Source of the DNA: Hydrogenophaga sp.
GTDB taxonomy: Bacteria; Pseudomonadota; Gammaproteobacteria; Burkholderiales; Burkholderiaceae_C
Direction of reading: 5' to 3'
DNA length: 36,921 nucleotides
NCBI GenBank assembly: GCA_030696525.1
Contig: JAUYSB010000106.1
Coordinates: 1 to 36,921 of the forward strand
The translations under genes and the position numbers were made by a program. A model generated the notes under the pieces. The model saw nothing but the letters and a program-made list of their open reading frames with translations, did no database searches and was not told the DNA's origin. Of this stretch, positions 8,612 to 32,352 are shown piece by piece. Position 1 is the stretch's first letter; every line of letters begins with the position of its first letter.

Positions 8612-8616
8612 CCCCG

Positions 8617-15280: not shown

Positions 15281-15364
15281 GCTGGCGGCCCCGCGTGACA
15301 ACCGTGTGGCAAGTGCCCGGCCACCGATCTGGCGCCACATGGCAGGGCCATGAACACCCCTGCC

Positions 15365-15382
15365 CTGTCACCGCGTTTTCAC
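15365..15382 (+). promoter_or_regulatory. Candidate PHO box upstream of the Mpo1-like gene
   Basis: CTGTCAC-cgcg-TTTTCAC matches the PhoB box at 12 of 14 positions with correct 11-base periodicity. Ten bases on is CAACAT (15393-15398), a weak -10 that keeps the key A2 and T6. The downstream ATG is at 15443. No matching box is oriented toward the divergent glycosyltransferase. Confidence 0.4.
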
Positions 15383-15442
15383 GCAGCGCCGCCAACATCC
15401 GCCGCAGGGCCACGCCGGCCCGCATCTCTGAACAGGACACGC

Positions 15443-16045: not shown

Positions 16046-17692
16046 TCAGCGCGCCCGCCACATCTCCTTGAGGATCTGGCGGCCGAAGTCGCGGCCCGTT
16101 TTGCCGGCGGGCACGGTCCACCAGCCATCCCCGCGCATCTGCTGGCACGCCAGCACAAAACGGCGTTGGATGTCGGCCATGTCGTCATCGGTGTGCGCCA
16201 GCGTGAACACCAGGCGGCCGGTGCCGACCCAGCTCAGCGCCAGGCCTTGCTCGCGCAGGTAGAACTGCAGCATCCAGTGGTAACGGGAGGGGGCGGTGAA
16301 GTTCACCGTCCAGATGCTGGACAGGGCGGCCACACGCACCGGCACATCGGCCCGCTGCAGCCCCTGGTTGAAGGTGTTCAGGCGCTGTTGCCAGCGCTCA
16401 TCCAGGCCCTCGTACAGCGCGCGCACTTCGTCGGTGTCGAGCCGGCGCAGAAAGGCGTTCATGGCGCCCATCACGTAGGGGTGGGCGTTGAAGGTGCCAC
16501 GCGCAAAACAGATGTCGGCCGGGCGATCGGGGCGGTAGCGCTGCATCCAGGCGGCGCGGCCACACACCACGCCCACCGGCAAGCCACCGCCCAGGGTTTT
16601 GCCGTAGGTGACGAAGTCGGCCAACACGCCGTAGTGCGCCTGCGCGCCACCGCGCGCCAGACGAAAGCCCACAAACACCTCGTCGAAGATGAGTGCGATG
16701 CCGCGCTCGGTGCAGACCGCGCGCAGGCGCTGCAGCCACTCGGTGTAGGCCGCGCGCGTGGCGGGTGTGCTCTGGCGGGCGCTCACCAGCGTGGAGTCGC
16801 CGGGCGCGTTGCGATTGGGGTGCAAGGCCTGCAGCGGGTTGACCAGCACACAGGCGATGTCGCGCTGCGTGCGCAGCACCTGCAACGCGCGCTCGTCCAT
16901 GTCTTTCAGAGTGAGGGTGTGGCCCGGTGGCATGGGGTTGCCGGGGCCGGGCTGAACATCGTCCCACCAGCCGTGGTACGCGCCACAAAAACGCACCAGG
17001 CGCTTGCGGCCGGTGTGGTAACGGGCCAGGCGCACGGCCTGCATCACCGCTTCGGTGCCCGACATGTGGAAGCTCACCGCGTCCATGCCCGAGAGGCTTT
17101 TGAGCCGCGCCACGTTGTCGGCCACACAGGGGTGGTAGCCGCCCAGCACCGGGCCGAGCGTGGCGCCCAGCGCAGCGCCTTCGGCCATGGTCGCCTTGTA
17201 GAAGTCCACCCCGAACACGTTGACGCCGTAAGAACCCGTGAGGTCGTGGAAGCGGTTGCCGTCGAGGTCGCTCAAGGACACACCGTCCGCGTGTTCCCAG
17301 AACGCCGGCAGCGGCAGGTGCTGGCGCACGAGTTCGCTGAACTGGAAAGGCACACGGTAGCGGCCGGTGAACTGCAGATCGGGTAAGCCCGCGCGCGCCT
17401 GTGTGGTCAGTGCCAGGCCTTGGGGCGCCATGCCCTGCAGCGTGGCGCTCAGGCGAAAGAAGCCAGCACGCCGCTGCGCCGCCACACTGGCCGGCGCGCC
17501 ATCGGCCCCAAAAAAATGCGCCTCGCCGTAGCTGTAGCCCGGCACCCAACGCGCCAGGCGTTTGGCCAGGCGCGAATGCCCGGCCAGCGAGCGGTGTTTG
17601 GCGCGCGACAGCAACAGGCGCCGGTGCAGCCAGGGAAACGCGGCAGCCAAGGCGCCGGCGGACAAAACCCATTCGGTGGACATCTGACACAC
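16046..17692 (-). CDS. Class III PLP aminotransferase, glutamate-1-semialdehyde aminomutase-like
   Basis: This is a fold-type I PLP enzyme with the class III layout: SGTEAVMQAVRLAR (phosphate-binding), GAYHGWWDD, IFDEVFVGFR (the Asp pairs with the pyridine nitrogen) and the Schiff-base lysine Lys365 in VTYGKTLGGG. The catalytic domain starts around residue 130 (AFWEHADGVSLSDLDGNRFH). The preceding part, about 125 residues, is an unusual extension that opens with a hydrophobic stretch (WVLSAGALAAAFPWLHRRLLL) and may anchor the enzyme to the membrane. It is too long for HemL and lacks its neighbours, so the substrate is unknown. The start is GTG 17692 or ATG 17683. It is divergent from psd across a 50-base gap that holds a six-base inverted repeat. 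Confidence 0.78.
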   Translation of the reverse strand: MCQMSTEWVLSAGALAAAFPWLHRRLLLSRAKHRSLAGHSRLAKRLARWVPGYSYGEAHFFGADGAPASVAAQRRAGFFRLSATLQGMAPQGLALTTQARAGLPDLQFTGRYRVPFQFSELVRQHLPLPAFWEHADGVSLSDLDGNRFHDLTGSYGVNVFGVDFYKATMAEGAALGATLGPVLGGYHPCVADNVARLKSLSGMDAVSFHMSGTEAVMQAVRLARYHTGRKRLVRFCGAYHGWWDDVQPGPGNPMPPGHTLTLKDMDERALQVLRTQRDIACVLVNPLQALHPNRNAPGDSTLVSARQSTPATRAAYTEWLQRLRAVCTERGIALIFDEVFVGFRLARGGAQAHYGVLADFVTYGKTLGGGLPVGVVCGRAAWMQRYRPDRPADICFARGTFNAHPYVMGAMNAFLRRLDTDEVRALYEGLDERWQQRLNTFNQGLQRADVPVRVAALSSIWTVNFTAPSRYHWMLQFYLREQGLALSWVGTGRLVFTLAHTDDDMADIQRRFVLACQQMRGDGWWTVPAGKTGRDFGRQILKEMWRAR

Positions 17693-17713
17693 GCCTGCAA
17701 AGTGAAGGTGTGA

Positions 17714-17729
17714 CAGTTGTAGGCAACTG
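17714..17729. repeat. Inverted repeat between aminotransferase and psd
   Basis: CAGTTG-tagg-CAACTG is a perfect six-base-pair dyad in the middle of the 50-base divergent gap. It could be an operator for a regulator shared by both genes. No regulator gene is adjacent, and chance cannot be excluded. Confidence 0.3.
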
Positions 17730-17742
17730 CTTTGACAAAACC

Positions 17743-18720
17743 ATGAACAAACCCGGCTGGCGCGAAAAAATCCTCTTGCAGGAAGACCTCAACTTCCTGC
17801 TCACCAACCGGGTGCCGCGCATGGCGCTGACCCGCTTCATGGGCTGGTTCAGCCGCATCCGCAGCCCGTGGCTCACGCGCCTGTCCATCGCTGTGTGGCG
17901 GCTGTTCACCGAGCTGGACCTGAGCGACGCGCGCGAGCAGCGCTTTGACAGCCTGCACGCCTGCTTCACGCGCCAGCTCTTGCCGGGCGCCCGCCCATTT
18001 GACGCGCAGCCCGACGTGATCTGCTCGCCCAGCGACGCGATCGTGGGCGCGTGTGGCGAGGTGAACGGCGCCGACATCCTGCAGGCCAAAGGCTTTCCCT
18101 ACCAGGTGCGCGAGCTGCTGCAAAGCGATGCTCTTACCCACACCATGCAGGGCGGCCGCTACGTGACGCTGCGCCTGACCTCGGCCATGTACCACCGCTT
18201 CCATGCGCCGCACGACCTGGTGGTGGACCGCGTGACCTACCTCAGCGGCGACACCTGGAACGTCAACCCCATTGCGCTCAAGCGGGTGGAAAAGCTGTTC
18301 TGCAAAAACGAACGCGCCGTCATCGAAACCCGGCTCAGCGCCTTCGGCAATGCCCCCCTGGTGCTGGTGCCGGTGGCCGCCATCCTGGTGGCCAGCATCC
18401 GCCTGCATTGCCTCAACGTGTTGCTGCACCTGCGCTGGCCCGGCCCCCAGGTGATGACCTGCAGCGCCGACCACGACAAGGGCCAGGAGATGGGCTGGTT
18501 CGAACACGGCTCGACCATCATCGTGTTTGTGCCGCCGGGGTTTGAACTGGCGTCGGGGATTGCCACTGGCACGCGCTTGCGGGCCGGAGAGGGGCTTTTT
18601 TTTGGCCGCAGCACTGACCCAACAGCCATGCGCCCTGTCACACAGCCGTCACACCACCGACCTACAACCGACACGGTCTCCCCACCCCATCCCAATCCAA
18701 GCTCACCATGCACACCCTGA
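17743..18720 (+). CDS. psd: Phosphatidylserine decarboxylase proenzyme
   Basis: Psd converts phosphatidylserine to phosphatidylethanolamine in the inner membrane, using a pyruvoyl group made by self-cleavage. The residues of the catalytic triad are visible: Asp98 in SPSDAIVG, His154 in MYHRFHAP and Ser257 in the cleavage motif HGST (LGST in many relatives). The family core ends around residue 289 (GEGLFFG). After it come about 35 Pro/Thr/Ser-rich residues that look non-functional and are encoded by the promoter region of the next gene. The frame passes a run of eight T at 18596-18603; one extra T would give a stop at 18615-18617, so a frameshift or slippage there should be considered. The stop overlaps the next start by 13 bases. 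Confidence 0.88.
   Translation: MNKPGWREKILLQEDLNFLLTNRVPRMALTRFMGWFSRIRSPWLTRLSIAVWRLFTELDLSDAREQRFDSLHACFTRQLLPGARPFDAQPDVICSPSDAIVGACGEVNGADILQAKGFPYQVRELLQSDALTHTMQGGRYVTLRLTSAMYHRFHAPHDLVVDRVTYLSGDTWNVNPIALKRVEKLFCKNERAVIETRLSAFGNAPLVLVPVAAILVASIRLHCLNVLLHLRWPGPQVMTCSADHDKGQEMGWFEHGSTIIVFVPPGFELASGIATGTRLRAGEGLFFGRSTDPTAMRPVTQPSHHRPTTDTVSPPHPNPSSPCTP
18635..18652 (+). promoter_or_regulatory. Candidate PHO box upstream of the beta-propeller lipoprotein gene
   Basis: CTGTCAC-acag-CCGTCAC is two direct repeats with 11-base periodicity and matches the PhoB box at 13 of 14 positions, the best match found in the window. Exactly ten bases downstream is TACAAC (18663-18668), a good -10. The ATG at 18708 follows. 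The box lies within the 3' coding extension of psd. Confidence 0.65.
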
Positions 18721-20366
18721 TCCGCCCTGCCCGTTTCTTTGCCCTGTCCCTCGTGACCGCCACCCTGCTCGCCGCCTGCGGCGGTGGTGACGACGATGAA
18801 CGCACGCCCGCCAGCCTCACGCTCAGCAAGATCGGCGGCTTCACACACGAGAGCGGCGAAGCCTCGGCCGAGATCACCGCCTTCGATCCGCTGAGCAAAC
18901 GCCTGTTTGTGGTCAACGGCGCGCTGGGCACGGTGGACGTGCTGGACCTCAAGGACCCGACCTCGCCCAAGCTCATCAGCAGCATCGCGGCCAGCAGCCT
19001 GGGCAGCAACCTCGGCGCCGTCAACAGCGTGGCGGTGCACCAGGGCATCGTGGCACTCGCGGTGGAAGCCAGCCCCAAACAGGGCAACGGCATCGTGGCC
19101 TGGGTGCGCGCCAGCGACCTGGCCGTGCTGGGCACCGACACCGTGGGCGCCCTGCCCGACATGGTGACCTTCAGCCCCGACGGCAAACACCTGCTGGTGG
19201 CCAATGAGGGCGAACCCAGCAGCTACAACCAGCCCGACTCGGTGGACCCCGAAGGCAGCGTCAGCCTGATCGCCGTCAGCGGCCTGTCGCCCACGGCCAC
19301 CAGCCTCACGCGCACCGTCACGCAGCTCGGCTTCACGGCCTTCAATGGCCAGATGGACAGCCTGCGCGCAGCGGGCGTGCGCATCTTCGGCCCCGGCGCC
19401 ACCGTGGCGCAAGACCTGGAGCCCGAGTACATCACCGTCTCGGCCGACAGCCGCACCGCCTACGTGACCCTGCAGGAAAACAACGCTGTGGCGGTGGTGG
19501 ACATCGCCAGCAAAAGCATCACCGCCATCAAGCCCCTGGGCACCAAGAACCACAGCCTGCCCGGCATGGGCATGGACGTGAGCGACGAAGACGGCGGCAG
19601 CAACACCAACAGCGGCACGCCGGTCATCAAAATCGCGCCGGTGCCCACCAAAGGCCTGTACCTGCCCGACGCCATCGCCAGCTACCAGGTGGCCGGCACA
19701 ACCTACCTGATCACCGCCAACGAGGGCGATGCGCGCGAGTACGACGGTTTTGAAGAAGAGGTGCGCATCCGCGCCCATTGCGACCAGGGCCTGGACCCGA
19801 CCGTTTTCACCAACGCCGAACAGCTCATCCTCGACAGCAACCTGGGCCGCCTGCGCGTGACCGCCGCCCCCAACGGCAACGTGACCGGCAAAAACGCCGC
19901 CGGCCAGTGCACCGAGCTCTACACCTATGGCGCGCGCTCCTTCACCGTGTGGGATGCCGCCAGCGTGACGCCGGTGTTCGACTCAGGTGATGCCTTCGAG
20001 CAGGCCACCGTGGCCCTGCCCAACGCCAGCTTCAACGCCAGCAACAGCAACAACGACCTGGACGGCCGCAGCACCAGCAAAGGCCCTGAACCCGAAGGCG
20101 TGGCGATCGGCAAGATCGGCAACAAGACCTTTGCCTTCATCGGCCTGGAGCGCGTGGGCGGCGTGATGGTGTACGACGTCAGCACGCCGTCGGCACCGGT
20201 GTACGTGACCTACCTCAACACCCGCGAAGGCGTTGCCGGCGACCGTGGCCCCGAGGGCCTGGCCTTCGTGCCCGCCGCCGATTCGCCCAACGGCAAGCCG
20301 CTGCTCATCGTCGGCAACGAAACCAGCGGCACCACCGCCGTGCTGCAGCTCAACCTGACGTATTGA
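18708..20366 (+). CDS. Choice-of-anchor I family beta-propeller lipoprotein
   Basis: The 552-residue exported lipoprotein has an N-terminal signal with lipobox LLAAC (Cys24), then GGGDDDE. The body is a beta-propeller with repeated strands of the type LFVVNGALGTVDVLDL, MVTFSPDGKHLLVANEGEP, YITVSADSRTAYVTLQENN and PEGLAFVP. It matches the family called choice-of-anchor I, whose members are sometimes annotated as alkaline-phosphatase-like or phytase-esterase-like. No enzymatic residue can be named with confidence. A PHO-box promoter candidate directly upstream suggests induction on phosphate starvation, which would fit a cell-surface phosphoester hydrolase. The gene is convergent with the PhnZ-like gene, overlapping by 17 bases. 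Confidence 0.8.
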   Translation: MHTLIRPARFFALSLVTATLLAACGGGDDDERTPASLTLSKIGGFTHESGEASAEITAFDPLSKRLFVVNGALGTVDVLDLKDPTSPKLISSIAASSLGSNLGAVNSVAVHQGIVALAVEASPKQGNGIVAWVRASDLAVLGTDTVGALPDMVTFSPDGKHLLVANEGEPSSYNQPDSVDPEGSVSLIAVSGLSPTATSLTRTVTQLGFTAFNGQMDSLRAAGVRIFGPGATVAQDLEPEYITVSADSRTAYVTLQENNAVAVVDIASKSITAIKPLGTKNHSLPGMGMDVSDEDGGSNTNSGTPVIKIAPVPTKGLYLPDAIASYQVAGTTYLITANEGDAREYDGFEEEVRIRAHCDQGLDPTVFTNAEQLILDSNLGRLRVTAAPNGNVTGKNAAGQCTELYTYGARSFTVWDAASVTPVFDSGDAFEQATVALPNASFNASNSNNDLDGRSTSKGPEPEGVAIGKIGNKTFAFIGLERVGGVMVYDVSTPSAPVYVTYLNTREGVAGDRGPEGLAFVPAADSPNGKPLLIVGNETSGTTAVLQLNLTY

Positions 20367-20907
20367 GCCGCGCACAGGCCGCCACACGCGGCCAGAAATG
20401 CGCCAGCGGCTCGGTGTCCATGCCGGGCCGCTTGGCGCCTTCGTCCCAGTGGCGCAGGCGCAGCGCGTCCTGCGCAAAGGGCAAAGCGTCGAAGGCCTGG
20501 GCTTGCGCCTCGGTCATCGGCCCACCCTGCAGCACCAGGCTGCGCAACGAGTCTTCGGTCAGCACCTTGAGGTAGGCCGGGTTCAGGCACAGGCGGCGTT
20601 TGGCCGCCACGTGCAAGGCCACCGGCAACACCACCTCATCGCCAAAACAGCGCGCCAGCACCTCGGCGGCCAGCGCCTCGTGGCGGTCGTCCACACCGAT
20701 GGCGCTGGGCGTGCCGAGTTGGCCATGCCACAGGTGGCCGATGTCGTGCAGCAGCGCGGCCACCACCAGCGCATCGCTGGCGCCCGCGCGTTCGGCCAGC
20801 GTGGCGGCCTGCAGGGCGTGTTGCAGGTGCGTCACCGGCTCGCCGGTGTAGCGCTCGTGGCCACGCTGTTTGAGCAGCTGCATCAGGTGTTCCGGGTGTG
20901 TCGTCAT
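20350..20907 (-). CDS. phnZ: PhnZ-family HD-domain phosphonate oxygenase
   Basis: The 185-residue HD protein belongs to the phosphonate-operon-associated HDIG family (TIGR03276). The model PhnZ is a di-iron oxygenase that cleaves (R)-2-amino-1-hydroxyethylphosphonate to glycine and phosphate. Visible ligands and markers are the lid motif YTGE (Tyr20, Glu23), His30, the HD pair in LLHDIGH (His54, Asp55, His58), His76, His99 and Lys103, and the family signature LQGGPMTEAQA followed by RHWDEGAK. All key positions of PhnZ that I can recall appear conserved, so activity is likely. The usual partner PhnY is not in the window. The gene is divergent from the aminophosphonate importer, sharing an 82-base control region. 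Confidence 0.85.
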   Translation of the reverse strand: MTTHPEHLMQLLKQRGHERYTGEPVTHLQHALQAATLAERAGASDALVVAALLHDIGHLWHGQLGTPSAIGVDDRHEALAAEVLARCFGDEVVLPVALHVAAKRRLCLNPAYLKVLTEDSLRSLVLQGGPMTEAQAQAFDALPFAQDALRLRHWDEGAKRPGMDTEPLAHFWPRVAACARLNTSG

Positions 20908-20951: not shown

Positions 20952-20969
20952 ATGTCCGGCTGATGACAC
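20952..20969 (-). promoter_or_regulatory. Weak PHO-box candidate toward phnZ
   Basis: On the minus strand GTGTCAT-cagc-CGGACAT matches 11 of 14 positions, with CAAGAT ten bases downstream and the phnZ ATG at 20907. Only its position in the divergent control region of phosphonate genes raises it above chance. Confidence 0.25.
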
Positions 20970-20989: not shown

Positions 20990-22030
20990 ATGCACACCAC
21001 CCCACTGACCCGCCGTTTCCTCATGACCAGCGCCGCCGCGCTGAGCCTGGCCCTGCCGCTGGCCGCACAGGCGCAGGGCAAGACCGAACTGCTGGTGTAC
21101 ACCGCACTTGAAGCCGACCAGATCAAGGCCTACAAGGAAGGTTTCGAGAAGGACCACCCGCAGATTGAACTGAAGTTCGTGCGCGACTCGACCGGCATCG
21201 TGACGGCCAAGCTGCTGGCCGAAAAAGCCAACCCGCAGGCCGATGTGGTGTGGGGCCTGGCCGCCACCTCGCTCAAGCTGCTCGACAAGGAAGGCATGTT
21301 GCTGCCCTACGCCCCCAAGGGCCTGGACGCCATCAAGCCCCACATGCGCGACCCGCGCGCCCAGCCCACCTGGGTGGGCATGAACGTGTGGTCCTCGGCC
21401 ATGTGCGTCAACACCGTTGAAGCCGGCAAGAAGGCCATGCCCGTGCCGAAAAGCTGGGCCGACCTGACGCAGCCCGCCTACAAGGGCCAGATCACCATGC
21501 CGCACCCGGCCAGTTCGGGCACCGGCTACCTGATGGTGGCGGCCTGGTTGCAGATGATGGGCGAACAAAAAGGCTGGGCCTACATGGACGCGCTGCACCA
21601 GAACATGGGCACCTACACCCACTCGGGCAGCAAGCCCTGCCGCCAGGCCGGTGCGGGCGAATACGCCGTGGGCCTGAGCTTTGAATACCGCGCCAACAAG
21701 ACCAAGAAGGAAGGCGCACCAATCGCCATCGTTCTGCCCAGCGAAGGCCTGGGCTGGGACATGGAAGCCACCGGCGTGATGAAAACCAGCAAGAAGCCCG
21801 ACGCCGCCAAGGCCCTGGCCGACTGGGCCGTGACCCGCAAGGCCAACGAGCTGTACGCCAAGAACTTTGCGGTGGTGGCCCTGCCCGGTGTGCAGGAAGC
21901 GCTGGAGTACATCGAAGTAGACGTGGAAAAGCTGCTGGCCAAGAACGACTTTGACTGGGCCGCCGGCAACCGCGAACGCGTGCTGGCCGAATGGAGCCGC
22001 CGCTATGAAGGCAAGGCCGAGAAGAAGTGA
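20990..22030 (+). CDS. phnS: 2-aminoethylphosphonate-type ABC importer, substrate-binding protein
   Basis: This 346-residue periplasmic binding protein has a signal peptide with a twin-arginine-like start (TRRFLM) and hydrophobic core, cleaved near AAQAQG. The mature part begins ELLVYTALEADQIKAYKEGF and contains the ligand-loop elements VRDSTGIVTAKLLAEK, HPASSGTGYL and SFEYRANK, as in the FbpA-like family assigned to 2-aminoethylphosphonate uptake (TIGR03261, PhnS2/AepX type). The start at 20990 has GGAG seven bases upstream. It is the first gene of an operon that includes the ATPase, double permease, a FAD oxidoreductase and PhnX, which supports an aminophosphonate ligand rather than iron. 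Confidence 0.87.
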   Translation: MHTTPLTRRFLMTSAAALSLALPLAAQAQGKTELLVYTALEADQIKAYKEGFEKDHPQIELKFVRDSTGIVTAKLLAEKANPQADVVWGLAATSLKLLDKEGMLLPYAPKGLDAIKPHMRDPRAQPTWVGMNVWSSAMCVNTVEAGKKAMPVPKSWADLTQPAYKGQITMPHPASSGTGYLMVAAWLQMMGEQKGWAYMDALHQNMGTYTHSGSKPCRQAGAGEYAVGLSFEYRANKTKKEGAPIAIVLPSEGLGWDMEATGVMKTSKKPDAAKALADWAVTRKANELYAKNFAVVALPGVQEALEYIEVDVEKLLAKNDFDWAAGNRERVLAEWSRRYEGKAEKK

Positions 22031-22048
22031 GTCGCGCCGGTTGAGCAC

Positions 22049-23177
<1,129 letters not shown>

Positions 23178-23185
<8 letters not shown>

Positions 23186-24875
23186 GCTGCGCGCACCGGC
23201 GCCCGGCCAGATGGCCGCCAGCGGCCTGCAGGACAAACACCTCAGCGGCCTGGCCACCGCACTCATGCTCGGCCTGGGCCTGCTGTTTGTGGTGCTGCCG
23301 GTGTGGGCGCTGCTGCAACGCAGCCTGTGGACGGCCGACGGCGCGTGGCTGGGCCTGAGCCTGTTTGCGCAGTACCTGGAAACCCCGGCCCTGCTCGATT
23401 CGGCCTGGCGCAGCCTGCGCCTGTCCGCGCTGTCGGCGCTGATCTGTGTGGGGCTGGCCTATGTGTACGCCTTCGCGCTCACACAAAGCCAGATGCGCGG
23501 CAAAGGCTTCTTCCGCGCCGTGGCCCTGCTGCCGCTGCTGGCGCCCTCGCTGCTCATGGCCATCAGCCTGGTCTACCTGTTCGGCAACCAGGGCCTGCTC
23601 AAGGGCTGGCTGCCCGGTGGCATCTATGGCGAGACCGGCATCGTCATCGGCTCGGTGTTGTGGACCTTCCCGCACGCACTCCTGGTGTTGCTGACCAGTC
23701 TGGCCACACTCGACGGCCGCCTGCCTGAAGCCGCGCGCACGCTGGGCGCGGGGCCGTGGCGCATCTTCTGGACCGTGACCGTGCCGGCCAGCCGCTACGG
23801 CCTGATGATGGCGCTGGTGGTGGTGTTCGTGCTGGTCATCACCGACTTTGGCGTGGCCAAGGTGATTGGCGGGCAGGCCAACGTGCTGGCCACCGACCTC
23901 TACCGCCAGGTGGTGGGCCAGCAGAACTTCGGCATGGGTGCCGTGGTCAGCGTGTGGTTGCTGCTGCCGGCCGTGGGGGCCTTCTTTTTGGAGCGCCACT
24001 TCCGCCGCCGCCAGGCCGCCAGCCTGGGCGCGCGCGCCAGCGTGTTCCAGCCGCGCCCACACACGCTGCGCGACCACACGCTGCTGGCCGTGTGCGTGCT
24101 GATCGCCCTGGCGCTGCTGGCGGTCATCGCCGTGGCGGTGTTTGCGTCTTTGGCCACCTACTGGCCCTACAACCTGACCCCCGGCTTCAAGAACTACGAC
24201 TTCGACAACATGGACGGCGGCGGCTGGGCCACCTACGGCAACTCGCTGCGCCTGGCCGTCCTGGTGGCGCTGCTGGGCACCGCCGCCGCTTTCGCCAGCG
24301 CGTGGCTGGTGGAAAAACCCCGCCACCACGGCGCCCTGCGGGAGGCCCTCAACCTGGTGCTGGCGCTGCCGCTGGCCGTGCCCGGGCTGGCGCTGGGCCT
24401 GGGCTACATCCTGTTCTTCAACACACCGGGCAACCCGCTGCAAGGGCTGTACGCGAGCATGGCCATTCTGGTCATCTGCACCGTGGTGCACTTCTTTTCG
24501 GTGGCCCACCTCACGCTGCTGGCCGCGCTGCGCCAGCTGGATCGCGAGTTCGAGCTGGTGGCCGAATCGCTCGGCGTGCCGGCATGGCAAACCCTGTGGC
24601 GGGTGCACCTGCCGGTGTGCCTGCCGGCGCTGCTGCAGGTGGCGGGCTTCTTTTTTGTCAACGCCATGACCACGGTGTCGGCGGTGGTGTTTTTGTACGC
24701 GCCACACACGCAGCTGGCCTCGGTGGCCGTGCTCAACATGGACGACGCCGGCGACGTCGCCCCGGCCGCTGCGATGGCGGTGCTGATCTTCCTCACCTCG
24801 GCCGCCGTGCGTGGCCTGTTTGCCCTCGCCTCCCACTTCGCGCTGCAACGCACCCAGGCGTGGCGGCAGCGCTGA
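23178..24875 (+). CDS. phnU: 2-aminoethylphosphonate-type ABC importer, fused double permease
   Basis: The 565-residue inner-membrane permease consists of two tandem BPD_transp_1 units of about six helices each. The first carries an EAA-type loop around EAARTLGAGPWRIFWTVTVP, the second around VAESLGVPAWQTLWRVHLP, both contacting the ATPase. One gene encoding both halves is typical of the TIGR03262 group and of FbpB-like iron permeases. The ATG at 23178 overlaps the end of the ATPase gene by eight bases (MAELRAPAPG); no upstream start is better. The FAD oxidoreductase gene follows after six bases. Confidence 0.88.
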
Positions 24876-24881
24876 AACCTC

Positions 24882-26006
24882 ATGACGAACAACACACACT
24901 TTGACCTGCTGGTGGTCGGCGCCGGCATCGTTGGCCTGGCCCACGCCTGGATGGGCGCGCGGCGCGGCTTGCGCGTGGCCGTGGTGGACCGCCACCACCG
25001 CTGCGTCGGCGCCTCCATACGCAACTTCGGCTTTGTCACCGTCACCGGCCAGGGCGCGGGCGACACCTGGCGGCGCGCCCGCCGCAGCCGCGATCTGTGG
25101 GCCGAGCTGGCGCCGCAAGCCGGCATCCCGGTCTTGCACAAGGGCCTGTGGCTGCTGGCCCAGCGCCCGGCCGCCATGGCCGTGGTGGAAGCTTTTGCCG
25201 ACACCGACATGGGCGCCGAATGCACGCTGCACACCGCCGCGCAGGCGGCCGACCTGGCGCCCGAACTGCGCACCGATGGCGCGGCCGGCGCGCTCTACAG
25301 CCCACACGAATTGCGGGTGGAGTCGCGCGAGGCCATCCCGCAGATCACCGCCTGGCTGGCGCAAGCCCACGGTGTGCAATTTTTCTGGGGTGAAGCCGTG
25401 CAACACGCGGCCGCACCTGTGGTGCAAACCGCCACCCGCGTGCTGCATGCCGAGCGTGTGGTGATCTGCCCCGGCACCGAACTGACTGGCGTGGCCCAGC
25501 CGCACCTGCAACACCACGGCATGGCGCTCACGCGCCTGCAGATGCTGCGCGTGCGCCCCGAACCCGGCTTCAGGCTGCACGCCGCCGTGATGAGCGACCT
25601 GAGCCTGGTGCGCTACACCGGCTACGCCGCGCTGCCCGAAGCAGCGCCGCTGCTGGCCCAGTTGTGCGACGAAGTGCCGCAGAGCCTGGACGACGGCATC
25701 CACCTGATCGCGGTGCAAAGCGCCGACGGCACGCTGGTGGTGGGCGACTCGCACCACAACCACGCCACGCCCGACCCCTTTGGCAGCGAGGCGGTGGACC
25801 GCCGCATCCTGCAGCACCTGCGCGAAACCCTGCAGCTCGGCCAGTGCGAGCTGGTGGAGCGCTGGGTGGGCTACTACCCCACGGGCGCGGGGCGCGACTG
25901 CGTGATCGAAGCCCCCGACGCCGCTACCCGCGTGGTGGTGGTCAGCAGCGGCACCGGGGCCAGCACGGCCTTTGGCATCGCCGAAGACGTTTTTGCCAAC
26001 TGGTGA
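24882..26006 (+). CDS. DAO-type FAD oxidoreductase of phosphonate operons
   Basis: The 374-residue flavoprotein has the FAD-binding VVGAGIVGLAHA at residues 11-22, an acidic strand end (VAVVDRHHR), and the subgroup signature GASIRNFGFVTVTGQ. This fits the glycine-oxidase-like family linked to phosphonate degradation (TIGR03364). Members of such FAD enzymes are reported to oxidise 2-aminoethylphosphonate or its N-methyl form to phosphonoacetaldehyde, bypassing the transaminase PhnW. That fits here, since PhnX follows after 13 bases and no phnW is present. Which amine is preferred cannot be told. The C-terminal FAD motif (VVSSGTGASTAFGIAEDV) is intact. The start ATG is six bases after the permease stop. 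Confidence 0.88.
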   Translation: MTNNTHFDLLVVGAGIVGLAHAWMGARRGLRVAVVDRHHRCVGASIRNFGFVTVTGQGAGDTWRRARRSRDLWAELAPQAGIPVLHKGLWLLAQRPAAMAVVEAFADTDMGAECTLHTAAQAADLAPELRTDGAAGALYSPHELRVESREAIPQITAWLAQAHGVQFFWGEAVQHAAAPVVQTATRVLHAERVVICPGTELTGVAQPHLQHHGMALTRLQMLRVRPEPGFRLHAAVMSDLSLVRYTGYAALPEAAPLLAQLCDEVPQSLDDGIHLIAVQSADGTLVVGDSHHNHATPDPFGSEAVDRRILQHLRETLQLGQCELVERWVGYYPTGAGRDCVIEAPDAATRVVVVSSGTGASTAFGIAEDVFANW

Positions 26007-26019
26007 CAGGAACACACCC

Positions 26020-26835
26020 ATGACTTTCAACACCCTCCAGGCCGTGGTTTTCGACTGGGCCGGCACCGTCATCGACTTCGGCAGCCAGGCGCCCATGGGC
26101 GCGTTTGTCGAGCTGTTCGCGCGCCACAACGTGGCCATCAGCATCGCCGAGGCGCGTGGCCCCATGGGCCTGCCCAAGTGGCACCACATCCAGGCCCTGG
26201 GCCAGCAGCCGCGCATTGCCGCCGCCTGGCAAAACGCCCACGGCCGCCCCTTCAGCGATAGCGACGTGGACGCGCTGTACGAGGAGTTCACCCCCATGAA
26301 CGCCGAGTCGGTCAAGCAACACGCCACGCTGATCGCCGGTGCCGCCGACATGGTGGCCCGCCTGCGCGCGGCCGGCCTCAAGATCGGCTCCACCACCGGC
26401 TACAACCGCCCCATCATGGACACCGTGGTGCCGCTGGCCGCCGCGCAAGGTTTTGCGCCCGACAACCTGGTGTGCGCCGGCGACCTGCCCGAATCGCGCC
26501 CCTCGGCGGCCGGCATGTTGCACACGCTGCAGGTGCTGGGCGGCATCGCCCCCCAACGCGCGGTGAAAGTGGACGACACCCTGCCCGGCCTGCTCGAAGG
26601 CCGCAACGCCGGCGCCTGGACCGTGGCCGTGCTGGCCAGCGGCAACGCCGCCGGCCTGAGCGAAGCGCAGTGGTTCGCCATGGGCGAACCCGAACGCGAC
26701 CTGGTGCGCATGCGCGCCCGCGACGAACTGGCCGCAGCCCAGCCCGACGCCTGGGTGGACACCGTGGCCGACCTCTGGCCCGTGTTGCTGGCGCTGGACG
26801 CACGCGCCACCACCGCACTGGGCCAGCCCGCATGA
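26020..26835 (+). CDS. phnX: Phosphonoacetaldehyde hydrolase (phosphonatase)
   Basis: PhnX cleaves the C-P bond of phosphonoacetaldehyde to acetaldehyde and phosphate. The 271-residue HAD-superfamily protein shows the nucleophile Asp12 in VVFDWAGTVIDFG, the Schiff-base Lys53 in MGLPKWHHI within the cap domain, the motif II threonine in GSTTGYNRPIM, and the DDT at KVDDTLPGLLEGRNAG. Numbering matches the Bacillus cereus enzyme at both catalytic residues, so it should be active. The start at 26020 (MTFNTLQ) is preferred over an in-frame ATG at 25972, which lies inside the FAD gene. Its stop overlaps the PAP2 start by four bases. Confidence 0.95.
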   Translation: MTFNTLQAVVFDWAGTVIDFGSQAPMGAFVELFARHNVAISIAEARGPMGLPKWHHIQALGQQPRIAAAWQNAHGRPFSDSDVDALYEEFTPMNAESVKQHATLIAGAADMVARLRAAGLKIGSTTGYNRPIMDTVVPLAAAQGFAPDNLVCAGDLPESRPSAAGMLHTLQVLGGIAPQRAVKVDDTLPGLLEGRNAGAWTVAVLASGNAAGLSEAQWFAMGEPERDLVRMRARDELAAAQPDAWVDTVADLWPVLLALDARATTALGQPA

Positions 26836-27422
26836 CACCCGCCGACCTGCACAACAACGTGCCGGGCGCCTTCGGCCAGGCCCGCCGCAGCGCATGGGAC
26901 TTGCGCGCCTTCGCCCGCCTGGGCGGCGGCCATGCGGCGCGAACGCTGCCACTGCACGCGGCGCTGCTGATCGCACGCGGCAGCAGTGGCCTGCTGCTGA
27001 TCGTGCTGCTGCTGGCCACGTGGTTGACGGCCGCGCCGTTGGCAAGCGCCACGGTGATCTTGCTGCTGGCAGGCGCCACACAGTACGCCGGCAAACGCCT
27101 GGCCCACCGCCACGGCGCGCCCCGCCCCTACCACCTGGGCCTGAGCCCCAACCACCTGCAACAAGGCGCACGCGGCGGCTGGCCCAGCAGCCACGCGCTC
27201 AGCATGGCCTGCGTGTGTGGCGCGCTGTGGGTGCTTGCGGGCCCCAGCGCGCTGTGGGCGGCCGCTGTGCTGCTCACTCTGGCCACCGGCTGGGCGCGCG
27301 TCTATGCCGGCGCGCATTTCCCGTCCGACGTGTTCGCGGGCTGGGGCCTTGGCCTGGCCAGCGGCTCGCTGGGCATGGCGCTGTGCCTGCCCTGGCTACC
27401 GACCGCCACCGCAATCGCCTGA
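26832..27422 (+). CDS. PAP2-family membrane phosphatase
   Basis: The 196-residue membrane protein has four or five hydrophobic segments and the three PAP2 phosphatase motifs in loose form: KRLAHRHGAPRP, WPSSHALSMA and WARVYAGAHFPSDV. The catalytic histidines (in PSSH and AGAH) are present. Family members dephosphorylate lipid phosphates or undecaprenyl pyrophosphate with the active site on the periplasmic face. Inside this operon it might release phosphate from lipid- or diester-derived substrates; that role is inferred from context only. It starts in the phnX stop (ATGA) and ends four bases before the next ATPase gene, so it is an integral operon member. Confidence 0.8.
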   Translation: MTPADLHNNVPGAFGQARRSAWDLRAFARLGGGHAARTLPLHAALLIARGSSGLLLIVLLLATWLTAAPLASATVILLLAGATQYAGKRLAHRHGAPRPYHLGLSPNHLQQGARGGWPSSHALSMACVCGALWVLAGPSALWAAAVLLTLATGWARVYAGAHFPSDVFAGWGLGLASGSLGMALCLPWLPTATAIA

Positions 27423-27426
27423 ACCC

Positions 27427-28461
27427 ATGGCCGCCATCGAACTGCGCGGTGTCACCAAACACTGGGGCGGCAGCACCGCCCTGCACGGCATTGCTGCGTC
27501 CATTCCGGCTGGAACCTTCTGTGTGTTGCTGGGCCCGTCGGGCTGCGGCAAGTCCACCACCCTGCGCATCCTGGCCGGGCTGGAAACCGCCAGCAGCGGT
27601 CAGGTGCTGATCGGCGGGCGCGACGTGACCGCACTGCCGCCAGCGCAGCGGGGCATCGCCATGGTGTTCCAGAACTACGCGTTGTTTCCGCACCTCAGCG
27701 TGGCCGACAACATCGGCTTTGGCCTGCAAGTGCGCAAGACGCCGGCGGCCGAAGCGCGCCAGCGCCTGCACGAAGCCGCCGAGCTGCTGGGCTTGACACC
27801 GCTGCTGTCGCGCAAGCCGTCGCAGCTCTCGGGCGGGCAGCAGCAGCGCGTGGCACTGGCGCGCGCGCTGGTGGCGCGCGCCCAGGTCTGCCTGATGGAC
27901 GAGCCGCTGTCCAACCTCGACGCCCAGCTGCGGCAGGACATGCGCACCGAACTGCGCGAGCTGCAGCAGCGCCTGGGCCTGACCGTGGTCTATGTGACCC
28001 ATGACCAGGCCGAGGCCATGGCCATGGCCGATCAGGTGCTGCTGCTCAACGCCGGCCGCATCGAACAGGCGGCGCCACCGCGCGCACTCTATGCCGAGCC
28101 GGCCACCCTGTTTGCGGCGCGTTTCATCGGCACGCCGGCCATGAGCGTGTTGCCGACCGGTGCGCTGCCGCCCCACATCGAACGGCCCGCCAACGCCCAC
28201 TGGCTGGGCCTGCGGCCTGAGGCCTTGCGCCTGGCCAACCCGGGCCAGCCAGGTGCCATGCGTGTGAGCGTGCGCGCGCTCGAGTACCTGGGCGCCGACC
28301 TGGTGCTGCACTGCCTGCTGGGGCCACACGCGCTGACCGTGCGCACGCCCGGCCACACCGTGGCCACGCCGGGCCAGCAGCTGGACCTGCAGTGGGCCAC
28401 CCACGACAGCCATTTTTTTGACGCCCAGGGGCGCCGCCTTTCCCCTCCCGCCTCCACCTGA
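27427..28461 (+). CDS. ABC importer ATPase, UgpC/MalK-like
   Basis: This second ABC ATPase of the operon has 344 residues, with Walker A GPSGCGKST (36-44), Q-loop VFQNYALFP, signature LSGGQQQR (134-141), Walker B VCLMDEP (154-160) and switch region VYVTHDQAEAMAMADQ. The C-terminal part is a TOBE domain (LGLRPEAL, VRALEYLGADLVLHCLLG), as in UgpC, MalK and other sugar or glycerol-phosphate importers. It serves the UgpB-like binding protein and two permeases that follow. The start ATG at 27427 lies four bases after the PAP2 stop. Confidence 0.9.
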   Translation: MAAIELRGVTKHWGGSTALHGIAASIPAGTFCVLLGPSGCGKSTTLRILAGLETASSGQVLIGGRDVTALPPAQRGIAMVFQNYALFPHLSVADNIGFGLQVRKTPAAEARQRLHEAAELLGLTPLLSRKPSQLSGGQQQRVALARALVARAQVCLMDEPLSNLDAQLRQDMRTELRELQQRLGLTVVYVTHDQAEAMAMADQVLLLNAGRIEQAAPPRALYAEPATLFAARFIGTPAMSVLPTGALPPHIERPANAHWLGLRPEALRLANPGQPGAMRVSVRALEYLGADLVLHCLLGPHALTVRTPGHTVATPGQQLDLQWATHDSHFFDAQGRRLSPPAST

Positions 28462-28484
28462 CATCCAACCGAAGAAAGCGAACC

Positions 28485-29774
28485 ATGCAACGCAAGACCT
28501 TCACCCGACTGCTCATCTCCACGCTGGCCACAGCCGGCCTGTCCGCACCCGCGCTGGCGCAAGCGCCGGTCGAGATTTCCTTCTTCTACCCGGTCGCCGT
28601 AGGCGGCCCCATCACCAAGACCATCGACGGCTACGCCGCCGACTTTGCGCGCGACAACCCCGGCATCAAGGTCAACCCCATCTACGCCGGCACCTACCAG
28701 GAAACCATCGTCAAGGCGCTGACCGCGCACAAGTCGGGGCAGCCACCGGTCACCTCGGTGCTGCTGTCCACCGACATGTTCACGCTGATCGACGAAGACG
28801 CCATCGTGCCCATCGACAGCTTCGTCAAGACCGCCGACGACAAAGCCTGGCTGGAGAGCTTCTACCCCGCCTTCATGCTCAACAGCCGCAGCGGCGGCAA
28901 GACCTGGGGCGTGCCGTTCCAGCGCTCCACCATCGTGCTGTACTACAACAAAGAGCTGTTCAAGGCCGCCGGCCTTGACCCCAACAAGGCACCCACCACC
29001 TGGGCCGAGATGGCCGACATGGCCAAGAAACTGACCGTGAAAGACGCCAGCGGCAAGACCACCCAGTTCGGTGTGCAGATCCCGTCCAGCGGCTTCCCTT
29101 ACTGGCTGTTCCAGGCGCTGGCCATCCAGAACGGCGTGGCACTGGCCAACGACGCTGGCAACACCGTGCGTTTTGACGACCCCGCCGTGGTGCAGGCCCT
29201 GCAGTACTGGGTGGACCTGGCCAAGAGCGGTGCGCACCCGGGCGGCATCGTCGAATGGGGCGCCACGCCCAAGGACTTTTTCGAAAAGCGCGTGGCCATG
29301 ATGTGGACCACCACCGGCAACCTCACCAACGTGCGCAACAACGCCAAGTTCGACTTTGGTGTGGCCATGCTGCCGGCCGGCAAACAAAAGGGCTCGCCCA
29401 CCGGCGGTGGCAACTTCTACATCTTCAAGAAGTCCACGCCTGCGCAGCAGGAAGCCGCGTTCAAGTTCATCAAGTGGATCACACAGCCCGAGCGCGCCGC
29501 GCGCTGGAGCATGGACACCGGCTACGTGGCCGTGTCGCCCGCCGCCTACGACACCGCCACCCTGCGCGACTACGGCAAGGCGTTCCCGCCCGCCCTGGTG
29601 GCACGCGACCAGCTGCCCTTTGCGCTGGCCGAGTTCTCGACCCACGACAACCAGCGCGTGACCAAGGCCCTCAACGACGGCCTGCAGGCCGCCCTGACCG
29701 GCGCCAAGACACCGGCCGATGCCATGCGCGACGCACAGCGCGAAGCCGACCGCCTGCTGCGCAGCTACAAATAA
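28485..29774 (+). CDS. UgpB-like extracellular solute-binding protein
   Basis: The 429-residue family 1 binding protein has a Sec signal peptide cleaved after about residue 26 (ALAQA). Mature features that resemble glycerol-3-phosphate-binding UgpB are VNPIYAGTYQETIVKAL (compare YKGNYEQ in E. coli), WGVPFQRSTIVLYYNKELF, and GGGNFYIFKKS near the second-lobe hinge. The ligand is probably a small organophosphorus compound such as a glycerol-phosphate-type ester, by homology and operon context; a plain sugar cannot be excluded. A GAAGAAAG-like ribosome-binding site lies about eight bases before the ATG. It sits 23 bases after the ATPase gene. Confidence 0.85.
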   Translation: MQRKTFTRLLISTLATAGLSAPALAQAPVEISFFYPVAVGGPITKTIDGYAADFARDNPGIKVNPIYAGTYQETIVKALTAHKSGQPPVTSVLLSTDMFTLIDEDAIVPIDSFVKTADDKAWLESFYPAFMLNSRSGGKTWGVPFQRSTIVLYYNKELFKAAGLDPNKAPTTWAEMADMAKKLTVKDASGKTTQFGVQIPSSGFPYWLFQALAIQNGVALANDAGNTVRFDDPAVVQALQYWVDLAKSGAHPGGIVEWGATPKDFFEKRVAMMWTTTGNLTNVRNNAKFDFGVAMLPAGKQKGSPTGGGNFYIFKKSTPAQQEAAFKFIKWITQPERAARWSMDTGYVAVSPAAYDTATLRDYGKAFPPALVARDQLPFALAEFSTHDNQRVTKALNDGLQAALTGAKTPADAMRDAQREADRLLRSYK

Positions 29775-29789
29775 GCCGGCGCACGCCCC

Positions 29790-30659
29790 ATGAACCAGCG
29801 CGCGGTCCACGCCTACCTGTTGCTGCTCCCGGCGCTGGTGCTGCTGTTCGGCTTCACCCACCTGCCAGCGCTGCAGTCGGTGGTGGACAGCTTTTTCTCC
29901 ACGCCCAGAGGCGCCCGAGCGGCGGTGCGGGTGGGGCTGGAGAACTACGCCGTGATGGTGGACGACCCCACCTTCTGGCGTGCGCTGCGCAACAACCTGT
30001 GGTTCGCGCTGGGCACCATCCCGGCGTCGATTGCGCTGGCGCTGTGCATGGCGGTGTGGGTCAATGGCCACATGGCTGGGCGCACCTGGCTGCGCATGGC
30101 CTACTTCACACCCACGGTGCTGCCCATGATCGCGGTCGCCAACATCTGGCTGTTTTTCTACACGCCGGGCTATGGGCTGCTGGAGCAGCTCACCGGCGCG
30201 CTGGGCCTGCCTTCGCACAACTGGCTGGGCGACCCCAGCACCGCACTGGGCGCGGTCACGCTGGTGGCGGTGTGGAAGGAAGCCGGCTTCTTCATGATCT
30301 TCTACCTCGCGGCCCTGCAGGGCCTGAGCCCCAGCCTGGCCGAGGCGGCCGCCATCGAAGGCGCGTCGCGCTGGCAGTTCTTCCGCCGGGTGCAGTGGCC
30401 GCTGCTCATGCCCACCACGCTGTTCGTGCTGGTCAACGCGGTCATCAACGCGTTTCGCATGATCGACCACATCGTGGTCATGACGCGCGGCGGGCCCGAC
30501 AACGCCACCACCCTGCTGCTCTACCACCTGTTTGAGGTCGGCTTCAAGTTCTGGGACACCGCCTACGCCGCGGCGCTGACCGTGGTGCTGCTTGCCCTGC
30601 TGGGCGCGGTGGCGTGGCTGCAGTTTGCCGTCATCGACAAGCGGGTGCACTACCAATGA
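29790..30659 (+). CDS. ABC importer permease, UgpA-like
   Basis: The 289-residue membrane permease has about six helices and the EAA loop EAAAIEGASRWQFFRRVQWPLL. The N-terminus (LLLLPALVLLFGFTHLPALQSVVDSFF) and the P-loop-like YFTPTVLPMIAVANIWLFFY are typical of the MalF/UgpA subunit. It pairs with the UgpE-like protein encoded next; the two genes overlap by four bases (ATGA). It lies 15 bases after the binding-protein gene. Confidence 0.9.
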   Translation: MNQRAVHAYLLLLPALVLLFGFTHLPALQSVVDSFFSTPRGARAAVRVGLENYAVMVDDPTFWRALRNNLWFALGTIPASIALALCMAVWVNGHMAGRTWLRMAYFTPTVLPMIAVANIWLFFYTPGYGLLEQLTGALGLPSHNWLGDPSTALGAVTLVAVWKEAGFFMIFYLAALQGLSPSLAEAAAIEGASRWQFFRRVQWPLLMPTTLFVLVNAVINAFRMIDHIVVMTRGGPDNATTLLLYHLFEVGFKFWDTAYAAALTVVLLALLGAVAWLQFAVIDKRVHYQ

Positions 30660-31483
30660 GCCCCTCCGGCGCGCAGCTGTACGGCCCCGGCCGGCTCGAC
30701 ACCCTGGCCGCCTGGGCGCTGGGTCTGCTCTGGGTGCTGCCCCTGCTCTACGCGGTGTGGACCGCCTTCCACCCCGGCGAGTACTCGACCCGTTTCGTGT
30801 GGGACGCACCGCTCACGCTCGACAACTTCGCCCGCGCGTGGGCGGCCGCGCCCTTTGCACGCTACTTCCTCAACACCGTGCTGCTGGTGACCATGATCCT
30901 GTGCGCCCAGCTGGTGCTCAGCACGCTGGCGGCCTACGCCTTTGCGCGCTTCGAGTTTCCCGGCCGCTCAGTGCTGTTTGCGCTGGTGCTGGTGCAGCTC
31001 ATGGTCATGCCCGACATCCTGCTGGTGGGCAACTACGCCAGCATGGCCCGGCTCGACCTGGTGGACACCCTGCTGGCCGTGGGCCTGCCCTACTTTGCCT
31101 CGGCGTTCGCCATCTTCCTGCTGCGGCAGACCTTTCTGGGCGTGCCGCGCGAACTCGAAGAAGCCGCCCGCGTGGAGGGCGCCAGCCCGCTGCAAATCCT
31201 GCTGCGTGTGTTCGTGCCGCTGGCGCGCCCGGTGTACCTGGCCTTCGCGCTGGTGTCGGTCAGCCACCACTGGAACAACTTCCTGTGGCCGGTCATCATC
31301 ACCAACACGCCCGAGTCGCGTCCGCTCACCGTGGGTCTGCAGGTGTTCTCATCCACCGACCAGGGCATAGACTGGTCCATCATCACCGCCGCCACCCTCA
31401 TGACCTCGGCCCCGCTGCTGATCGGCTTTCTGCTCTTTCAGCGCCAGTTTGTGCAGAGCTTCATGCGGGCGGGCATCAAATGA
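30656..31483 (+). CDS. ABC importer permease, UgpE-like
   Basis: The 275-residue partner permease has about six helices and the EAA loop EEAARVEGASPLQILLRVFVPL. The opening (WALGLLWVLPLLYAVWTAFHPGEY) and LVLVQLMVMPDILLVGNY match the MalG/UgpE subunit. It starts within the stop of the UgpA-like gene and its stop overlaps the start of the EEP hydrolase gene (ATGA), so translation of all three is coupled. Confidence 0.9.
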   Translation: MSPSGAQLYGPGRLDTLAAWALGLLWVLPLLYAVWTAFHPGEYSTRFVWDAPLTLDNFARAWAAAPFARYFLNTVLLVTMILCAQLVLSTLAAYAFARFEFPGRSVLFALVLVQLMVMPDILLVGNYASMARLDLVDTLLAVGLPYFASAFAIFLLRQTFLGVPRELEEAARVEGASPLQILLRVFVPLARPVYLAFALVSVSHHWNNFLWPVIITNTPESRPLTVGLQVFSSTDQGIDWSIITAATLMTSAPLLIGFLLFQRQFVQSFMRAGIK

Positions 31484-32352
31484 GCCCCACCATGAAACTC
31501 ATCACCTGGAACACCCAATGGTGCCTGGGCCTGGACGGCCAGAGCAGCCCGGCGCGCATCATTGAACATGCGCGCGAGATGGCCGATTTCGATGTGCTGT
31601 GCCTGCAGGAAATCGCCGTCGACTGCCCCGGCCTGCCGGGCGTGGGCGCCATGGACCAGGTGGCCTGGCTGAGGGCGCTGCTGCCCGGCTTTGACGTGCA
31701 CTTTGGCGCCGCCTGCATCGAACGCGGCCCCCACGGGCGGCTGCAGCAGTTCGGCAACCTCATCGCCACCCGGCTGCCGGTGCAACAGGTGCAGCACCAC
31801 AGCCTGCCCTGGCCGGCCGATCCGCGCCAGCCGTCCATGCCGCGCATGTGCACCAGCGTCACCGTGCAACACGGGGAACGGCTGCTGCGCGTGATGACCA
31901 CCCATCTGGAGTATTACAGCGCGCTGCAGCGCACGGCGCAGGTGCTGGCGCTGTGCGAGCTGCAGCGCCAGGCGGCCCGACTGGCCGCCACGCCGCCCGT
32001 GGGCGGCGGCGCCGGCACCCCGTTCCAGGCCAAGCCGCACACGGCCAGCGCCATCGTCTGCGGCGACTTCAACATGGCGCCCACAGACAGCGCCTACGCT
32101 CAACTGCTGGCCGCCACCGACGACCAGCACCGGCCGCTGTGGCAGGACGCCTGGCGCGTCTGCCATGGCCAGGCGCCGCACCCACCCACCTTCCGCCTGT
32201 ACGACCGCAGCCACGGCCCCGAGCCCGTGGCGTGCGACTTCATCTTTGTGAGCCCCGACCTCGCCCCGGCCGTGCGTGCGGTGCAGGTGCGCGCCGACAC
32301 CCAGGCCTCGCACCACCAGCCGGTGCTGCTGGAACTGCACCCACCGGGCTGA
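31480..32352 (+). CDS. Endonuclease/exonuclease/phosphatase (EEP) fold hydrolase
   Basis: The 290-residue metal-dependent phosphoesterase has the EEP motifs in order: WNTQW (residues 10-14), LQEI (42-45, metal Glu44), THLEYYS, GDFN (195-198) and SHHQPV (277-282, catalytic His). No signal peptide is visible, so it acts in the cytoplasm. EEP proteins include nucleases, sphingomyelinases and phosphodiesterases. As the last gene of the phosphonate/Ugp-like operon, coupled to the permease by an ATGA overlap, it more likely hydrolyses an imported phospho- or phosphonodiester than DNA; this is inference. ATG 31492 is an alternative start. Confidence 0.83.
   Translation: MSPTMKLITWNTQWCLGLDGQSSPARIIEHAREMADFDVLCLQEIAVDCPGLPGVGAMDQVAWLRALLPGFDVHFGAACIERGPHGRLQQFGNLIATRLPVQQVQHHSLPWPADPRQPSMPRMCTSVTVQHGERLLRVMTTHLEYYSALQRTAQVLALCELQRQAARLAATPPVGGGAGTPFQAKPHTASAIVCGDFNMAPTDSAYAQLLAATDDQHRPLWQDAWRVCHGQAPHPPTFRLYDRSHGPEPVACDFIFVSPDLAPAVRAVQVRADTQASHHQPVLLELHPPG

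Follow-up and report, generated by a model that had tools for sequence, protein, structure and literature searches.

The window analysed here is the whole 36,921-nucleotide contig JAUYSB010000106.1 of the Hydrogenophaga sp. assembly GCA_030696525.1, a single contig (C17) of a 3.97 Mb metagenome-assembled genome (MAG; 309 contigs, 80% complete). It carries 11 co-directional genes at 20990-32352 on the + strand, with intergenic gaps of -8 to +23 bases, in the order phnS2-phnT2-phnU2-hpnW (pbfD type)-phnX-PAP2-UgpC-UgpB-UgpA-UgpE-like-EEP. The first half is an already known type of aminophosphonate operon, and the second half without PAP2 is very probably a stand-alone C-B-A-E-EEP module of Comamonadaceae. 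What is new is a Ugp-paralogous importer and EEP esterase joined, on this contig, to an aminophosphonate operon of standard type; no description of the C-B-A-E-EEP module was found in the literature searched, with subscription journals mostly outside its reach. As the best overall explanation we consider it moderately likely that an independent phosphorus-scavenging module was captured behind the phn promoter.

The second half spans 26832-32352 on the + strand and contains the following genes:

26832..27422, + strand: PAP2 membrane phosphatase (PF01569, 52.9 bits, cut-off 27.2)
27427..28461, + strand: UgpC-like ATPase (NF008653, 390.5 bits, below the cut-off of 432)
28485..29774, + strand: UgpB-like binding protein, a UgpB paralogue (NF008211, 183.9 bits, below the cut-off of 411)
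29790..30659, + strand: UgpA-like permease (NF007852, 122.5 bits, below the cut-off of 335)
30656..31483, + strand: UgpE-like permease (NF008210, 127.5 bits, below the cut-off of 297)
31480..32352, + strand: EEP-fold metal-dependent phosphoesterase (PF03372, 54.2 bits, cut-off 24.5)

The original prediction had placed a PAP2 protein, a Ugp-like importer and an EEP protein after phnX, translationally coupled or nearly so, and both statements hold, with gaps of -4 bases (PhnX/PAP2), +4 (PAP2/C), +23 (C/B), +15 (B/A), -4 (A/E) and -4 (E/EEP); the importer order that it gave as B/A/E/C is C-B-A-E. All four Ugp-like proteins score under the NCBIfam cut-offs of the true Ugp family. PAP2 contains the motifs PSSH and RX5HX3D, while KX6RP was absent in the motif scan, and its best other match among 200 genomes of the family is 42% identical. 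PAP2 was considered as a bridging part and rejected, since no family match exceeded 42% identity and the fetched loci had no PAP2 gene next to PhnX or UgpC.

Relatives of the EEP protein were found in 32 of the 200 family genomes, and the five module genes C, B, A, E and EEP occurred together in 14 of 31 family EEP loci (the window's own excluded; many of the compared loci are interrupted by contig ends), including L058, in which EEP lies far from E. Among named genomes, the scan retained the 80 best EEP loci (80 named loci), and all five genes were on one strand in 43 of these, with fewer than 500 bases between E and EEP in 41; the genera bearing the module were Variovorax, Ramlibacter, Rhodoferax, Delftia, Comamonas, Diaphorobacter, and others. 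PhnS2, HpnW, PhnX and PAP2 were absent from the 31 family EEP loci, in which PhnT2/PhnU2 matches were weak (26-36%), and HpnW, PhnX and PAP2 were absent from the 80 named loci, one of which (L182) held a 30-32% similar importer on the opposite strand about 2.5 kb off and five further ones ATPase matches of 31-40%. PAP2, UgpB, UgpA, UgpE and EEP were likewise absent from 36 family and 10 genus HpnW loci, with a single 36% ATPase match in L240. Altogether, none of the 157 fetched loci of relatives (31 family EEP, 36 family phn, 10 genus phn and 80 named) joined the two halves.

The same separation was seen at the level of whole genomes. A UgpB-like protein (E 1e-120 or better) was present in 20 of the 200 family genomes and co-occurred with EEP in 18 of these (3.2 expected, Fisher p 4e-15), and HpnW exceeded its cut-off in 37 of the 200. 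Only four genomes shared EEP and HpnW (5.9 expected, p 0.46) and four UgpB-like and HpnW (3.7 expected, p 0.77); each of these overlaps includes the window's own genome, and elsewhere the genes are on separate contigs or hundreds of kb apart. Within the genus, EEP was found in one of 60 genomes, its own. The original prediction had proposed a single route, with aminophosphonate released by the second half and used by the first; with no locus joining the halves and co-occurrence at chance, this route finds no support, and the gene-neighbourhood survey that it called for returns the halves as separate, a chance adjacency as far as the samples go.

No conserved neighbour beyond the module was found across genera in a survey of flanking genes: SDR, antiporter, polyhydroxybutyrate polymerase and thiolase neighbours reflect Variovorax synteny, and PBP1C-type and FMN dehydrogenase neighbours reflect synteny of the Comamonas/Delftia type. 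Partial UgpE copies were observed just after EEP in a Rhodoferax MAG (L164:10894-11211), and others at L058 and L221, where the module is split.

The importer is a paralogue of Ugp and not Ugp itself. The genome bin holds a separate canonical ugpBAECQ on contig C142, with UgpB (427.4 bits, cut by the contig end), UgpA (393.1, cut-off 335), a UgpE-like open reading frame (ORF), UgpC (512.6, cut-off 432) and UgpQ (345.7, cut-off 264); the importer in the window is thus a second one, as had been predicted, for which the name Ugp is too narrow. A separate UgpB over the cut-off was present in all 15 module-bearing genomes searched (own included), in which the module protein scored 168-190 bits. In the tree, a split supported at 100/100 sets the module and plasmid proteins (27 rows) apart from the 7 rows of canonical UgpB, subject to a long-branch warning for three rows, and the window protein groups with four EEP-linked rows (100/96). 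The module shares with Ugp the transporter type, the subunits and a cytosolic phosphodiesterase encoded with the importer (in the module, a putative one), but differs in that its four subunits fall under the family cut-offs, its order is C-B-A-E, its esterase is of EEP fold whereas that of Ugp is the GDPD-type UgpQ (which sits with the separate operon on C142), and its binding protein has lost most of the glycerol-contacting residues, true ugpBAECQ being located elsewhere in the genome.

These residues were mapped onto Phaeobacter UgpB, the contacts being taken from the accessible part of PMC12718374, which lists Tyr64, Ser143, Ser266 and Tyr342 for the phosphate and Glu88, Arg393, Trp188, Trp191 and Gly303 for the glycerol. 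In an alignment of 38 UgpB-like rows (mean column identity 75%, with an invariant set of its own), the phosphate contacts Tyr71, Ser148 and Tyr347 are identical in 38/38 rows and the Ser266 position is Thr in 37/38. Of the glycerol contacts only Gly303 is kept, with Glu88 replaced by Ser95, Arg393 by Thr393, Trp188 by Val/Ile197 and Trp191 by a gap; in a profile alignment, one Trp may pair with an aromatic residue at 195. The AlphaFold model of the UgpB-like protein (predicted local distance difference test, pLDDT, 90.2) is nearest in fold to E. coli UgpB; next come a binder of cyclic maltosyl-maltose, the M. tuberculosis UgpB structure that contains glycerophosphocholine, and a Thermus dinucleotide-binding protein. 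As judged from the aligned sequences, the pocket suits a ligand that carries phosphate but is not glycerol 3-phosphate; it does not by itself identify that ligand.

The EEP model has a pLDDT of 96.5 and its catalytic domain starts at once (first strand at residues 5-11), so that the enzyme is probably cytosolic. Among solved structures, the closest to it in fold are an uncharacterised EEP (4ruw), 3mpr, TDP2, nocturnin, the Bt3783 mannosyl-6-phosphatase, exonuclease III types and CNOT6L. The residues N11, E44, H142, D196, N198, D253, S277, D278 and H279 are kept in all 80 named relatives, and all of them except S277 we take to be the catalytic residues of the fold.

The partner esterase is exchangeable. 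Among 256 plasmid records with a UgpB-like relative (195 of them Escherichia), 15 regions were picked from the listings, one of which (Halomonas) was unannotated, and a phosphoesterase lay next to or inside the importer operon in seven of the 14 annotated regions. According to the plasmid annotation, these partners belong to several families: EEP in Comamonas odontotermitis (with one intervening gene) and Bradyrhizobium, a metallophosphoesterase in two Pantoea, a phosphodiesterase in Nitratireductor and one E. coli plasmid, and a convergent GDPD-family gene in Acuticoccus. The E. coli enzyme matches 2dxl and 2zo9 over 274/274 residues (5e-181 and 3e-180); 2ZO9 is named GpdQ in the accessible part of PMC6205647, and that of PMC4926365 calls glycerophosphoethanolamine the natural substrate of GpdQ. 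The Nitratireductor partner belongs to the GpdQ/Rv0805 family (7e-22), and the Pantoea partner is nearest to a "putative dimetal phosphatase" (1.5e-13). In sugar-importer controls, a phosphoesterase was found in none of seven regions within the 5 kb fetched (7 of 23 records viewed), which held sugar kinases, aldolases and dehydrogenases instead; with archaea and Deinococcus as their sources, the controls differ in taxonomy from the test set and allow only a rough comparison.

In E. coli plasmid NZ_CP033761.1 (L331), gpdQ, the gene of a glycerophosphodiesterase that is already characterised, lies inside the Ugp-like importer operon in the order A-E-GpdQ-C-B. This IncF plasmid operon resembles the module in combining an importer with a small phosphodiesterase, and its UgpB-like protein is 36.5% identical to that of the window (25-28% for true family UgpB), but the gene order differs and its esterase is a calcineurin-type metalloenzyme, not EEP. 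Together with the kept phosphate contacts, the phosphoesterase partners support the general idea of the original prediction, uptake and cleavage of esterified organophosphorus, though not its proposal that aminophosphonate is freed for the first half.

As the cargo of the module, we give a slight preference to a phosphodiester. A nucleotide or short-oligonucleotide importer, with EEP as a small-nucleotide phosphodiesterase or phosphatase, is an unlikely alternative: one of the nearest folds is that of the Thermus dinucleotide-binding protein, the module shares with this protein an aromatic residue and a Gln where E. coli UgpB has two Trp (profile alignment), and the EEP fold is nearest to TDP2, nocturnin, CNOT6L and exonuclease III types, but the partner esterase is GpdQ in the E. 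coli plasmid operon and a GDPD-family protein in Acuticoccus, and the sequence is closer to UgpB (1.2e-50) than to the Thermus protein (2.1e-33). The Thermus thermophilus protein (7c0f series), whose dinucleotide-binding function is given by PDB titles and the accessible part of PMC12718374, resembles the module protein in its near fold and some pocket positions, but is only 24% identical in the structural alignment and has no EEP neighbour known here. A sugar phosphate or other phosphomonoester, with EEP acting as a phosphatase, seems a little less probable again; the importer is of CUT1 type and the EEP model resembles Bt3783 mannosyl-6-phosphatase (4c1r), but the module comes without a sugar kinase or dehydrogenase and most partner esterases of the importer in other genomes belong to diesterase families.

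The first half of the operon, and the features upstream of it, are as follows:

20350..20907, - strand: PhnHD-type HD-domain oxygenase, divergent to the operon (TIGR03276, 212.0 bits, just below the cut-off of 214.6)
20952..20969, - strand: Pho-box-like site before phnS2 (score 12.4, above 98% of shuffles)
20990..22030, + strand: PhnS2-type aminoethylphosphonate-binding protein (TIGR03261, 510.9 bits, cut-off 392.75)
22049..23185, + strand: PhnT2-like ATPase (TIGR03265, 389.5 bits, below the cut-off of 457.7)
23178..24875, + strand: PhnU2 permease (TIGR03262, 745.8 bits, cut-off 593.25)
24882..26006, + strand: HpnW, PbfD-type FAD aminophosphonate oxidase (TIGR03364, 416.6 bits, cut-off 285.1)
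26020..26835, + strand: PhnX phosphonoacetaldehyde hydrolase (TIGR01422, 311.4 bits, cut-off 220)

With PhnX, HpnW, PhnU2 and PhnS2 over and PhnT2 under the cut-off, this half belongs to the aminoethylphosphonate (AEP) phosphonatase operons of pbfD/hpnW-phnX type. In the parts of these papers available, Achromobacter carries hpnW, phnS, phnX, phnU and phnT with lysR and phnHD (PMC11203657), and Rhodoferax koreense carries pbfD-phnX, PbfD1 is annotated in TIGR03364, and PbfD enzymes oxidise N-methyl-AEP and AEP to phosphonoacetaldehyde (PMC10590968). The first half shares with these operons phnSTU, hpnW, phnX and a nearby phnHD but differs in what follows: PAP2, Ugp-like and EEP genes do not appear in the accessible parts of the published accounts (in that of PMC11203657, "ugp" has 0 occurrences). 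HpnW was found in 11 of 67 genus genomes, own included; 19 of the 36 family HpnW loci hold all five phn genes inside the approximately 10 kb fetched, and in the 10 genus relatives genes from further upstream stay beside the phn operon, as does the PhnHD gene wherever it was seen.

Pho-box-like sites were scored with a consensus and weights that we presume to be appropriate; plain counts were weak and random 300-mers were composition-biased, and the scan used was that with shuffles and upstream controls. Of 46 phn loci, 18 had a usable start, and in 15 of these the region ahead of phnS2 reached the 95th percentile of shuffles. At least that percentile was reached by 30% of 40 stand-alone ugpC-like upstream regions versus 5.6% of 143 control upstream regions taken from those same loci, a comparison whose p value is too small, since the regions are mutually related. 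Within the window the module has only low Pho-box scores, with no dedicated search made for a promoter of its own. From these sites, both units look like phosphate-starvation genes, which would be a reason for the fusion to be kept.

On the explanation that we favour, the ligand captured by the binding protein would be an anionic phosphoester, with a phosphodiester similar to the glycerophosphodiesters as the likeliest candidate, held unlike glycerol 3-phosphate in UgpB, the permease-ATPase complex would import it, and EEP would cut it in the cytosol, taking the place of UgpQ in canonical Ugp. The module, with PAP2 at the seam, would have been placed behind phnX and be read on a common transcript from the phn promoter that bears the Pho-box-like site, putatively under PhoB control, and what unites the two halves would be their purpose (phosphorus under starvation) and their transcript, and not any common substrate.

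Besides the taxa of the sugar controls and the relatedness of the upstream regions, several points limit or weigh against this explanation. The fusion of the halves is known from one MAG contig. EEP occurs without the importer in 14 of 32 family genomes, and in seven Variovorax loci (L152, L160, L161, L186, L188, L196 and L198) it is at the same SDR-flanked spot with the importer absent; therefore EEP and importer need not work together, and EEP beside the same SDR gene in Variovorax may have a role of its own. An adjacent phosphoesterase is missing from seven of the 14 plasmid regions (two Chelatococcus, Pseudoroseomonas, Neorhizobium, Ruegeria, Paroceanicella and Thermus, where one lies five genes away), the second-ranked fold of the binding protein binds a cyclic sugar, and the nearest EEP structures are mostly DNA/RNA enzymes or of unknown function, with a mannosyl-6-phosphatase among them. 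The first, count-based Pho-box scan was weak (9.4 versus 8.7 in shuffles). Finally, residue 278 of the window EEP is His (codon CAC), just before the catalytic His279, where all 80 named relatives and the other 29 rows of the family alignment have Asp, the other catalytic residues being kept; D278H may weaken the enzyme, judging by the role of this Asp in other EEP enzymes, or it may be harmless or a sequence error. Recent decay of the window EEP was considered and found no support beyond D278H, its divergence being ordinary (rank 9/44, outside the six largest residuals).

It is improbable that both halves form a single pathway, in which a phosphonate ester (e.g. glyceryl aminoethylphosphonate) is imported and cut by EEP, and HpnW and PhnX use the aminophosphonate. 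Both halves are phosphorus-related and tightly coupled in the window, and the accessible part of PMC10590968 gives aminoethylphosphonates as substrates of HpnW/PbfD enzymes, but the 157 loci and the chance-level co-occurrence speak against it, and the phn half has a binding protein and permease of its own. An assembly or binning artefact of the MAG is very improbable: the join is unique, on one of 309 contigs of an 80% complete genome, and the module is missing from the other 59 genus genomes searched, but the ORFs continue through the seam with a 4-base overlap (PhnX/PAP2) and a 4-base gap (PAP2/C), compared with 21 background pieces of the genome, the tetranucleotide use of both halves is ordinary (z 0.78 and 0.67), and the window G+C content of 0.683 is inside the 0.627-0.703 range of 17 readable other genome stretches. 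A foreign composition of the module was likewise rejected on its tetranucleotide use.

Other genes of the window also concern phosphorus or adjoin the phn operon. A polyphosphate kinase 2 gene, another phosphorus gene on the contig, is located at 7697-8611, and a GGDEF-EAL protein at 8431-10992 immediately precedes a PhnD-like phosphate/phosphite/phosphonate-binding protein at 11006-11923 (TIGR01098, 200.0 bits, cut-off 112.05), a pair that is possibly a phosphorus sensor tied to cyclic-di-GMP. Glycosyltransferase, Mpo1-like, class-III aminotransferase and phosphatidylserine decarboxylase genes occupy 14018-18720; the same four genes adjoin the phn operon or its HpnW in three genus relatives (L234, L237 and L239), and this cluster beside phn is perhaps a lipid pathway.

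More broadly, we tentatively suggest, as a possibility that we rate below the capture explanation, that C-B-A-E-X is a general class of uptake module for organophosphorus, as yet without a name. A single importer lineage would be combined in it with interchangeable esterases (EEP, GpdQ type, other metallophosphoesterases, GDPD) and would take up a phosphodiester not taken by true Ugp; joined here to an aminophosphonate operon, it would let a single transcript under Pho control gather ester- and carbon-bound phosphorus, for example from the debris of lipids bearing both. Identifying the cargo would give the substrate for a whole class of environmental phosphorus uptake. Ugp-like importers are often annotated as glycerol 3-phosphate transporters by similarity, which may be wrong for the module, a conserved paralogue that occurs alongside true Ugp, has an altered pocket and comes with an esterase of its own, and counts of phosphorus-cycling genes in soil and water that rely on such annotations may err for it. 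Further, the importer-GpdQ operon offers a natural setting for GpdQ.

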